Origin: Lachnospiraceae bacterium
Lineage (GTDB): Bacteria; Bacillota; Clostridia; Lachnospirales; Lachnospiraceae
DNA length: 41,049 nt
Reading direction: 5' to 3'
Assembly: GCA_016285265.1 (NCBI GenBank)
Contig: JAEEQL010000011.1
Location: 1-41,049, forward strand
This document shows positions 37,739 to 41,049 of this stretch, piece by piece. Each line of letters opens with the position of its first letter. The first letter of the stretch is position 1. The notes under the pieces are model-generated. The model saw only the letters and a list, made by a program, of their open reading frames with translations, had not been told where the DNA came from and did not search any database. The translations under genes and the position numbers were made by a program.

Positions 37739-37782
37739 AAGTGTGTAAATATTATCATATTTCTATATGGATACAAAGAGGA

Positions 37783-37788
37783 TATAAT
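37783..37788 (+). promoter_or_regulatory. Consensus -10 box for the FecR-domain gene
   Basis: TATAAT stands 33 bases before the start codon of the gene at 37822. The best -35 at 17 bases (TTTCTA, 37760-37765) is weak. The gene is divergent from the helicase. Confidence 0.45.
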
Positions 37789-37821
37789 GATTCGGTAAGT
37801 TTATTTTATCGGGGGATAAAT

Positions 37822-39672
37822 ATGTTCTGTTCAAAATGCGGAAGTGAAATTGAAGAAGGAGAGCTTTTCTGCGGAAATTGCGGTACACCGGTTTCGGCAG
37901 AATCCGTCACACCGGAAAAGGAAGAGTCGCATGCAGACGGCTCCGAAAAGGCTGTCAGTGCAGAGGAAAAGCCTGACGGCAGGAAGTTTAATAAGACCGC
38001 CATTGTTATTGCAGTTTTTTTTATATGGCTTCTATTGGTGGCGGGATTGGCATTTATGATCTATTCGATCGTCATGAAAGCTTCGACCATGAGACTTTCA
38101 TCATATACCGGCGATGTGACGCTTACCAATGAAAACGGAAAGGTTCTTGAACTTAAGGAAGATAAGAGGCTCTTTGGCGGCAATGAGCTAAGTACGGGAA
38201 AAGAAAGCAAAGCCTATGTGCTTCTTGACGAAGACCGTTTTGTGACGCTCATGGAACGCAGCACCGCAGATTTCATCCAAAAGGGCAGCAGTATAAGCAT
38301 ATCGCTTGAAAAAGGAGATCTGTTCTTCAATATCGCAAGGGATCTTGAAGAGAATGAATCATTGAATATATCCACATCCACCATGATCATCGGTATTCGC
38401 GGAACATCGGGTTACGTAAGAGCGGATGAAAACGGAAATCCCGTGCTGTATCTTACCGGCGGAAAGGTTATGGCCTATGCCGAAGATCCGGATTCGGGAA
38501 ACACCGATCAGAGAAAGATCAGAGCAGGTCAGAAGCTTACCGTGATCATCACAGACGGTGAGATCGAAATGATCGTAGAGGATATAACTGAATACGATCT
38601 TCCCGAAGATGCGATAATAGAGATCACAACGGACCGGGATCTTCTTAATGACGTTGTAGAAGAGACCGGATGGGATAAAGATATTCTGAAGGAACTTAAG
38701 AGTATGTATGAAAGCGGAGATGTTCCGGATGTCGGCACAGGTTCATCCGACTCCTTCGGACCTCCCGATACATCCGATTGGCCGGAAGAGGCTTTTGAGA
38801 TCGTAGGCACATGGGATCTGAGCCCGACTATGGAAAATACTCTGCTGAGTCTGCAGTTTAACCGTGATGCAACCGGTATCGCCAAGACATATGTTGACGG
38901 TGAATTCCATGAGATAGAATTTTATTGGAACTGGATGAATTCCGGCAGCCTGTACTCTGTTGTTCTTGCAAAAGGAGAGACCGCTGTCGGCATTGACAGT
39001 TTATTTAACGTTGAATGCTGGGGAGACAGGATTGTATATCATTCTTCTTATTACTTAAGCGCCGATACCACAGTTCAGACAGGTTCTTTGGCATCCGACA
39101 ATGAAATAGATCAGCAGATCATCAAGTGGGTTATCGGAACCTGGCATGATCCTGATGATTTCATAAAGTTCACTTTAACTTTCTATGATGACGGAACAGG
39201 AACGACAGGATATCAGGCATTTAACTGGAGTGTAAATAACGGTGTCTTAACCTGCGATTTATTTGACGGTGATTCTGTTGAATTTGATTCCGGAACGATC
39301 CTGTATAAGTTTGAAGCCTTTGACCGGTATGGCTGGATTGAATTAGATAAATATGTCCTTTGGGTTCCGGATACTTTTGCCGTATGGACATACGACGATT
39401 ATGAATATTATTCGGTTCGGAACGGTGATTACACAGATTACCTGACAGGCAGAAAATTCTCGCTTTATATCGGTGCTCCTGCAGGAGCCGGAACAGGAAG
39501 CGGCTGCGGAAGGATTGTTTTTGGAGAGGATAATTCGTTTCTCTCGTATTACGGTGACGGTATGTTTTACACTGATTATGACGGAGGAATGTATTTCTGG
39601 CTGACAGATGATGATATTATCAGGGTACAATACCCCGATGATCCGTGCTCATATTTTTTTGAGAAAGACTGA
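37822..39672 (+). CDS. Zinc-ribbon / TM / FecR-domain protein with tandem lipocalin-like repeats
   Basis: The 616-residue chain has a zinc ribbon (C3, C6, C17, C20), an acidic linker, one TM helix (about 59-83), and a FecR-type beta domain (about 95-240: AYVLLDEDRFVTLMERS, STMIIGIRGTSGYVRA, GGKVMAYAED). Two repeats of about 110 residues follow, beginning VGTWDLSP (G329) and IGTWHDPD (G439), each with an FxxDxTG(I/T) strand. A third, divergent beta segment closes the protein. FecR domains in Gram-negatives relay siderophore signals to sigma factors; here no sigma factor or TonB receptor is nearby, so the role is different and unknown. GGGGGATAAAT before 37822 fixes the start. The N-terminal ribbon has the same Cys spacing as the gene at 9559. 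Confidence 0.78.
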   Translation: MFCSKCGSEIEEGELFCGNCGTPVSAESVTPEKEESHADGSEKAVSAEEKPDGRKFNKTAIVIAVFFIWLLLVAGLAFMIYSIVMKASTMRLSSYTGDVTLTNENGKVLELKEDKRLFGGNELSTGKESKAYVLLDEDRFVTLMERSTADFIQKGSSISISLEKGDLFFNIARDLEENESLNISTSTMIIGIRGTSGYVRADENGNPVLYLTGGKVMAYAEDPDSGNTDQRKIRAGQKLTVIITDGEIEMIVEDITEYDLPEDAIIEITTDRDLLNDVVEETGWDKDILKELKSMYESGDVPDVGTGSSDSFGPPDTSDWPEEAFEIVGTWDLSPTMENTLLSLQFNRDATGIAKTYVDGEFHEIEFYWNWMNSGSLYSVVLAKGETAVGIDSLFNVECWGDRIVYHSSYYLSADTTVQTGSLASDNEIDQQIIKWVIGTWHDPDDFIKFTLTFYDDGTGTTGYQAFNWSVNNGVLTCDLFDGDSVEFDSGTILYKFEAFDRYGWIELDKYVLWVPDTFAVWTYDDYEYYSVRNGDYTDYLTGRKFSLYIGAPAGAGTGSGCGRIVFGEDNSFLSYYGDGMFYTDYDGGMYFWLTDDDIIRVQYPDDPCSYFFEKD

Positions 39673-39785: not shown

Positions 39786-39814
39786 TTGTTAATAGTGCGA
39801 ATTTGCGATATAAT
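39786..39814 (+). promoter_or_regulatory. Promoter of the GH13-like gene
   Basis: TTGTTA (39786-39791) and TATAAT (39809-39814) are separated by exactly 17 bases. The predicted start near 39821 leaves a leader of about 20 bases with GGAG before the ATG. Confidence 0.75.
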
Positions 39815-39840
39815 TTATGGGATTATGGAGAAGTTTGCGA

Positions 39841-41049
39841 ATGAATAGGAACAGTTCCAATTTCATATTTCCCCTGATCACTCAGGTGACCGCGTCAGGT
39901 GTGCGTTTCTGCCTTGAAACAAGCGCTTCTGATTGCGGTATCGTCCTTTATGACAGAAAGTCCGGGGACGAACTCGGAAAGATAGCTTTTGACTCTTCCG
40001 ACAGGATAGGAAATCTTTATTGCAAGACTGTTCCGGATATTGATCCCGCAGGGATGTCATATCTGTATTATATCGGAAATAAACTATTGTCCGATAAAAG
40101 AGCACTCAGCCTTCTTCCTTCGGATCATTACGGTAAGGAATTAAAGGAGCCGTTAAAGGCGAACATATATGATGAGGATTATGACTGGGAGGGTGACTGC
40201 TTTCCGGCACTTAAATATGAGGACAGCTTCTGGTATCTCCTTCATGTAAGGGGCTTTACCAGGTCTTCAAGTTCAGGTGTTAAGGGAAAAGGAACCTTTG
40301 CCGGCGTTACCGAAAAGCTTGATCATCTTCAGGATATAGGCATTACTACCGTAGAGCTTCAGCCCGCGTATGATTTTGAAGACTGGGATGAGGAGACAGG
40401 CAGGCTTAACTACTGGGGATATAAGCCCGGATTTTATTACGCACCCAAGGCCGCTTATGCGTATTCCAAGGATCCCGTCAGGGAGTTCAAGGATCTCGTT
40501 AAGGCTCTTCATAAAAGAAATATGGAAGTCTGTATGCAGTTTTATTTTGCGGCAGACTTTCCCGAGGCGGAGATCCTGGAGATCCTTCGCTACTGGGTTG
40601 TAAACTTCCACGTTGATGCATTCCACCTTATGGGCATGAACATACCCATGAGTCTTGTGGCATCCGATCCCATGCTTGCCGGTACCAAGATCCTTTCCGA
40701 TCATCTGGAAAGCATTAATTTTGATATCATCAGAAAGCCCGGTGACAGAAGAGTCATCGGTTACTATTCCGACGATTTTCAGTATCCGCTCAGAAAGCTG
40801 CTTAAGAGCGATGACGGACAGGTGTCCGATGTTCTTGCACAGCTCCGTTCCAATCCCGAGGAAAACGGAAGGATCAATTTCTTTTCAAGTTACAGGGGAT
40901 TCACTCTTATGGATATGGTCAGTTACGACCGTAAGCATAATGAGGAAAACGGCGAAGAAGGACGAGACGGAAGCGATTACAACTTCAGCTGGAATTGCGG
41001 CGAAGAAGGTCCCACCAGGAAAAAGAAGGTAAAGGATCTCAGGGAAAAG
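39841..41049 (+). CDS. GH13 glycogen-debranching-like protein with lost catalytic residues (partial, runs off right edge)
   Basis: The frame is open from ATG 39841 to the window end (403 codons, no stop). An N-terminal CBM48-like beta domain (about 1-125) is followed by a GH13 barrel. GKGTFAGVTEKLDHLQDIGITTVELQP and LNYWGYKPGFYYAPKAAYA (first one in parts: GKGTFAGVTEKLDHL, QDIGITTVELQP), and later SYDRKHNEENGEEGRDGSD and YNFSWNCGEEGPT match TreX/GlgX/isoamylase-type enzymes. The active-site regions do not. Region I is MEVCMQFYFA (228-237) instead of VIMDVVYNH. Region II is VDAFHLMG (258-265), two residues short and without the nucleophile Asp. Region III is VIGYYSDDF (305-313) without Glu. 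Region IV is FSSYRGF (348-354) where CHDGF is expected. It is therefore probably a non-hydrolytic glycan-binding or regulatory relative. GGAG lies 10 bases before the start. Confidence 0.82.
   Translation, partial: MNRNSSNFIFPLITQVTASGVRFCLETSASDCGIVLYDRKSGDELGKIAFDSSDRIGNLYCKTVPDIDPAGMSYLYYIGNKLLSDKRALSLLPSDHYGKELKEPLKANIYDEDYDWEGDCFPALKYEDSFWYLLHVRGFTRSSSSGVKGKGTFAGVTEKLDHLQDIGITTVELQPAYDFEDWDEETGRLNYWGYKPGFYYAPKAAYAYSKDPVREFKDLVKALHKRNMEVCMQFYFAADFPEAEILEILRYWVVNFHVDAFHLMGMNIPMSLVASDPMLAGTKILSDHLESINFDIIRKPGDRRVIGYYSDDFQYPLRKLLKSDDGQVSDVLAQLRSNPEENGRINFFSSYRGFTLMDMVSYDRKHNEENGEEGRDGSDYNFSWNCGEEGPTRKKKVKDLREK

Follow-up and report, generated by a model that had tools for sequence, protein, structure and literature searches.

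A family-wide GlgX/isoamylase paralogue of Lachnospiraceae without a complete catalytic triad, putatively a non-catalytic alpha-glucan binder

In plants, the isoamylase ISA1 forms heteromers with the non-catalytic ISA2 (PMC12892837; PMC12510319), which has been proposed to add glucan sites to the ISA complexes, and the available text of the latter source describes the reason why plants retain ISA2 as not understood (PMC12510319). According to the same text, from a 2025 study, maize ISA1 mutants in R504, N561, W578 and N628 had no detectable activity; these four residues cluster at the surface, at a distance from the catalytic site, in a 'border lobe' that makes up one flank of a secondary glucan-binding site in plant ISA1, W578 contacting glucan in the secondary binding site 2 (SBS2), and the SBS2 sequence is said there to be absent from ISA2 (PMC12510319). 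A further heteromer of the same pathway is that of GlgC with GlgD (PMC10395257). The GlgX of Streptomyces venezuelae is controlled by c-di-GMP, with an ExR(X)6R motif and Arg438/Arg579 among the features of the responsive protein, and represents a case in which the GlgX fold serves as a signal receptor (PMC9530166). In Blautia obeum, two glgX homologues were counted (PMC10395257). A search of the open-licence literature for a bacterial inactive GlgX retrieved no description, while the plant case was found.

The window analysed here, a stretch of 41,049 nucleotides, corresponds to contig C97 in the draft genome (2.7 Mb, 190 contigs) of a Lachnospiraceae bacterium. At its end, an open frame that starts at ATG 39817 or ATG 39841 runs to the last base and encodes the first two thirds of a GlgX/isoamylase-like protein of around 614 amino acids, truncated by the contig end. 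From ATG 39841 the window holds 403 codons (39841..41049, + strand) and the remainder is found on another contig of this genome, C1 (614 residues in total from ATG 39817). Contig C1 starts within the gene and overlaps the window along 492 bases (window 40558-41049 vs. C1:1-492, locus L039) with 7 mismatches, all of them silent, the encoded protein being identical, which suggests a strain mixture in the draft genome. In G116, a genome of the same genus, the gene is whole, a single uninterrupted frame of 615 amino acids that is 89% identical to the window protein and has a DUF5662-like and an aroC-like gene behind it, as is also seen on C1. Hence, of the intact frame described in an earlier note on this DNA, what stands is that the frame is open up to the window end and whole in G116, whereas the gene itself is cut by the contig end and has to be completed from C1.

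The likelier start is ATG 39841, because a ribosome-binding-site-like GGAGAAG read from the sequence (39827..39833, + strand) ends 7 nt 5' of it, and because a promoter-like site TTGTTA-17-TATAAT (39786..39814, + strand; 10 of 12 matches) ends at 39814, so that ATG 39817 would precede the expected transcription start. The earlier note had credited the gene with a good promoter of its own; the match is there, but the number of such sites in the region (2 vs. 1.1 ± 1.0 in shuffles) was not above chance and the argument is weak. Residues of the protein are numbered from ATG 39817 throughout. Upstream of the gene, positions 37741-39672 (+ strand) encode a protein with a zinc ribbon and a FecR domain.

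An intact GlgX is also encoded in the window genome, on contig C189, and was compared with the degenerate paralogue over the segments that we take to be GH13 regions I to IV. Region I reads QFYFAAD (residues 241-247; 40537..40557, + strand) vs. DVVFNHT in the intact enzyme, region II AFHLMGM (residues 268-274; 40618..40638, + strand) vs. GFRFDLA, region III LSDHLE (residues 293-298; 40693..40710, + strand) vs. IAEAWD and region IV SYRGF (residues 358-362; 40888..40902, + strand) vs. CHDGF. The nucleophile Asp of region II, the acid/base Glu of region III and the His-Asp of region IV are all substituted, as already claimed from the letters of the window and as corroborated by the alignment of homologues. 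In contrast, the claim that region II was two residues shorter fell short of the actual loss, with 23 residues between regions I and II compared to 67 in the intact GlgX and 28 between regions II and III compared to 42.

None of the first 29 best matches that were read had a complete triad, and 80 named loci could be sorted into 46 of the degenerate and 34 of the intact type. In the final alignment, the complete triad was absent from all 141 homologues of the degenerate clade, the window protein included (L170 and L188, which are partial frames, and L097 are omitted from the 141-row counts). The aligned nucleophile was found in 0/141 degenerate rows vs. 36/36 active GlgX rows, the acid/base Glu in 23/141 vs. 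36/36 and the transition-state Asp in 28/141 vs. 35/36, one active row being gapped at this position. Locus L189 retains Glu, His and Asp in the remaining catalytic places but lacks the nucleophile. The possibility that the catalytic residues had moved nearby was rejected, as only L029 (1/141) presented an Asp at the nucleophile offset, without the Glu and the transition-state Asp.

In a tree of 27 degenerate and 36 active rows, a single change divided the two groups with an SH-aLRT value of 100; the tree came from a quick search with 27 of the 76 degenerate rows then collected and all 36 active ones, and 19 of its 60 inner branches were poorly supported (L079, L081 and L097 had been dropped from alignment A2). 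The intact sequences formed the separate group, and no orthologue with intact motifs was found among the homologues. Of 120 genomes sampled from the family of the window genome, 98 have the degenerate protein; these genomes are related, and so the counts are not independent. Named carriers were mostly Lachnospiraceae, and the labels of others were looser (Eubacterium sp. or Clostridiales, for instance). Across the class, 291 genomes were sampled: the protein was detected in 8 of the 10 that belong to the family (counting the window genome), and a full-length match was found in none of the 281 genomes outside it, three of these being members of the same order but not of the family; these 281 were judged by match pattern at E 1e-30, their motifs not being read. 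Seven of them did give matches; in six the match falls into two parts on either side of the lost loop, as occurs with intact GlgX, and in one it is restricted to the N-terminal part. In genome G019, the degenerate frame (L012:1420-3858, + strand; 813 amino acids) continues as a single open frame into a stretch that resembles a methylated-DNA cysteine methyltransferase.

Between two genomes of the genus, the dN/dS of the gene was 0.044 for the window part, where dS (1.38) is close to saturation, and 0.050 for the C1 part, values near those of aroC (0.045) and GlgX (0.037) and below those of DUF5662 (0.076) and the helicase (0.067, with saturated dS) for the same genome pair. As judged from these ratios, the gene is under strong purifying selection, and the alignment and tree indicate that the loss of the triad is old and clade-wide. 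Recent decay was rejected on the basis of the 141 homologues without a complete triad and the low dN/dS, in agreement with the earlier description of a maintained protein. Thus, the three features that define a pseudoenzyme appear together: the catalytic residues are lost, the loss is common to the orthologues and selection is purifying.

The homology to GlgX exceeds chance by a wide margin (TIGR02100, E 4.3e-48; a solved isoamylase, E 2.3e-46). The curated TIGR02100 cut-off of 640.9 bits was not reached by the window part (163.9) or by four full-length relatives (311.6, 286.4, 348.1 and 322.6), and a Pfam GH13 match of 31.8 bits covers part of the protein. Curated families do not set the degenerate clade apart. 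A structural model of the relative L045, predicted from 44 degenerate sequences, reached a pLDDT of 86.6 and a pTM of 0.88, and a Foldseek search with this model returned rice ISA1 as the nearest solved fold (E 6.1e-50, TM 0.79), followed by other ISA1 structures, GlgX and TreX, with ISA2 at TM 0.74. The isoamylase-type fold of this relative is therefore predicted to be intact, as had been proposed for the window protein.

The distribution of the conserved positions along the protein was uneven. Columns invariant (at least 97%) in active GlgX were examined across the degenerate rows and called kept at 90% or more, in residue bins that were picked after the column list had been seen. Kept columns amounted to 3/10 in the N-terminal part and 15/25 in the first part of the barrel, fell to 3/56 around the active site (2/40 for residues 237-300 and 1/16 for residues 301-360) and reached 26/30 in residues 361-460, the border-lobe block, and 3/3 beyond residue 460. 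The well-kept block reads KHNEANGExNxDGxxYNxSWNCGxEGxT ... GDEFGNSQxGNNNxYCQDN; in the window protein, its first part is KHNEENGEEGRDGSDYNFSWNCGEEGPT (residues 373-400; 40933..41016, + strand), which includes N375 and W392, aligned with N561 and W578 of maize ISA1.

The positions of maize ISA1 were transferred through the rice enzyme, in which the maize spacings recur (74 for R504-W578, 17 for N561-W578 and 50 for W578-N628), giving R493, N550, W567 and N617. The alignment of the degenerate protein with rice ISA1 is gapless from N375 to N442, and R326 (40792..40794, + strand) is aligned across a gap of eight residues. The equivalents of R504, N561, W578 and N628 are R326, N375, W392 and N442, which were kept in 139, 141, 125 and 141 of the 141 degenerate rows, respectively. 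W392, at the position of the glucan-contacting Trp, was the least conserved of the four, with 16 exceptions (eight Ser, two Phe, two Tyr and the rest others). The conservation pattern thus reads as a clade that gave up the cutting site and kept the border lobe, and the retained residues point to glucan contact. These residues are conserved in active GlgX too, so their retention may merely hold the lobe together.

Concerning the neighbourhood, the recurrent genes within 8 genes of 46 named loci were those for DUF5662 (24 loci), a UvrD-like helicase (20), a GltX-like protein (19), a short acidic protein (19) and an ABC protein (17), names that, except for DUF5662 and the helicase type, represent a reading of the sequences. 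No glycogen gene was recurrent within this range, and membership in a glycogen operon was rejected on this basis. In 68 further loci, a DUF5662-like frame was found in the available flanks of 34, always on the same strand and downstream (34/34), and the DUF5662 gene lies directly downstream of the degenerate glgX in 52 of the 98 genomes. In the window genome both genes are coupled, their frames overlapping as ATGA (DUF5662 gene at L039:1101-1673, + strand). DUF5662 was present in 85 of the 98 genomes with the degenerate protein vs. 14 of the 22 without it (p 0.025, uncorrected for kinship). DUF5662 is a compact, conserved family. An alignment of 24 of its rows revealed an invariant His-Asp pair together with further shared His, Asp and Glu residues, a pattern that makes the product a putative metal-dependent hydrolase of HD type ('HD-like'). 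No paper on DUF5662 was found in the open-licence literature. As a weak lead, matches to glgB lie near the degenerate gene somewhat more often than expected, at least 5 within 20 kb (about 1.5 expected) and at least 10 within 40 kb (about 3 expected) among the 115 matches listed in genomes with the degenerate protein, figures uncorrected for kinship. In genome G117, the GlgB gene (C6:103841-105721) is around 2 kb from the degenerate glgX.

The enzymes of glycogen synthesis were almost universal among the 120 family genomes, with scores over the cut-off for GlgD in 118, for GlgA in 116 and for GlgB in 114. The debranching enzymes were much less frequent: GlgX was counted in 35 (matches of at least 377 bits plus one fragment of 293 amino acids in G045), PulA in 28 (genomes over the cut-off) and GDE_C in 22 (matches of at least 176 bits, leaving out 14 further genomes with marginal matches below 28 bits only). 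GlgA was still present in 20 of the 22 genomes without the degenerate protein, and therefore glycogen synthesis does not require it. The complete absence of a debrancher from the 45 carriers that have neither GlgX nor PulA nor GDE_C was an idea weakened by a GH13 search of six of them, all of which showed a frame of 685-713 amino acids with one shared match pattern; the one that was read (G078) is neopullulanase-like with intact catalytic segments, and the window genome has a similar one. A missing debrancher is thus not proven, and the neopullulanase-like GH13 is a candidate for glycogen debranching in these six genomes. The near-complete genomes G072, G117, G078, G061, G059 and G012 hold the degenerate glgX and no counted GlgX, PulA or GDE_C.

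The explanation that we prefer, with the chances about evenly balanced, is that the protein is a family-wide pseudoenzyme of the isoamylase/GlgX type and a putative non-catalytic binder of alpha-glucan, analogous to plant ISA2 but with different retained parts. Its border lobe would grip alpha-glucan chains, of storage glycogen or limit dextrins, without cutting them, and the protein would act in holding or sensing glucan or as a scaffold. More tentatively, it might cooperate with the DUF5662 product and do without GlgX; speculatively, the glycogen status would be handed over through DUF5662. The full extension of this idea, namely that a non-catalytic isoamylase arose in Lachnospiraceae independently of the plant one, senses the state of the glycogen store via the border-lobe site and relays it via the adjacent DUF5662, as a module commoner in this family than the parent debranching enzyme, we consider improbable. 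Against glucan binding stands the possible, although doubtful, alternative that the ligand or partner is a different one and that the lobe is kept for fold stability only, in a scaffold unrelated to glycogen. The housekeeping character of the neighbours and the lack of a recurrent glycogen gene among them agree with such a scaffold, as does the fact that the retained residues are common to active GlgX, only two columns having a degenerate-clade majority (at least 85%) that differs from the active one. It accounts less well for the retention of all four border-lobe positions that are known to matter for function in ISA1 and for the higher frequency of known debranchers (any of GlgX, PulA or GDE_C) in carriers, 53/98 vs. 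6/22 (p 0.033, uncorrected for kinship).

That the protein serves an active GlgX as the non-catalytic partner in a heteromer, as in ISA2-ISA1 and GlgD-GlgC, seems unlikely. The precedents belong to the same pathway and 32 of the 35 genomes with GlgX, that of the window included, also carry the degenerate protein (the other three being among the 22 without it), but GlgX is missing from 66 of the 98 carriers, the association across the 120 genomes was not significant (p 0.12) and 45 carriers lack all three counted debranchers. The 66 carriers without GlgX and the lack of a significant association imply that the protein is not an obligate GlgX subunit; an alternative partner might be another GH13. 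Those same 45 carriers, together with the presence of GlgA over the cut-off in 116 of the 120 genomes, could be taken to mean that the protein still debranches with other residues, and many acids are indeed conserved (D366, D384, E397, D433 and E434). This is very improbable, as active GlgX conserves these acids too, the loop between regions I and II is gone and each of the six examined genomes has its own GH13 frame, intact in its catalytic segments in the G078 copy. Finally, a decaying gene or an assembly artefact, which could be suspected from a frame that stops at a contig border and an overlapping contig that differs at 7 of 492 bases, is practically refuted by intact orthologues: the open frames of the homologues are comparable in length and free of internal stops, the G116 orthologue is whole and the dN/dS is as low as 0.044-0.050.

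If the preferred reading of a non-catalytic glucan binder is correct, this bacterial case, without the nucleophile, with lobe sequence that ISA2 lacks and mostly without GlgX, would allow non-catalytic glucan handling to be examined separately from debranching. The degenerate form outnumbers GlgX almost threefold in the 120 genomes (98 vs. 35) and resembles it in sequence, so that predictions of glycogen breakdown that rely on 'glgX' annotations may often fail in these gut bacteria. Set against the open-licence literature searched, the novelty is that bacteria possess a non-catalytic isoamylase whose retained parts are not those of ISA2.

Compared to bacterial GlgX (GH13_11, TIGR02100), the degenerate clade shares the fold (Foldseek TM about 0.72-0.79 to GlgX, TreX and ISA1), the border-lobe block and the GDE...GNNN segment, and it differs in the lack of a complete triad (141/141), in the shortened active-site loops and in scores far under the TIGR02100 cut-off. 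The fold of GlgD is unrelated to that of the degenerate GlgX, and GlgD-type matches are over the cut-off in 118 of the 120 genomes, whereas the degenerate GlgX is found in 98. GlgD, the regulatory subunit of GlgC, is a regulatory relative of an enzyme of the same pathway (PMC10395257), as the degenerate protein may be. Unlike the degenerate clade, the c-di-GMP-controlled GlgX of Streptomyces venezuelae is an active enzyme (PMC9530166). Plant ISA2 is, like the degenerate clade, a non-catalytic paralogue of GH13_11 type, old, conserved in its clade and with the nucleophile lost, according to the available text (PMC12510319). The degenerate protein differs from ISA2 in occurring mostly without a GlgX partner, in being nearer ISA1 (425 bits) than ISA2 (227 bits), as measured by profile scores, and in keeping the SBS2-side positions of the border lobe, a sequence said in that text to be missing from ISA2 (PMC12510319).
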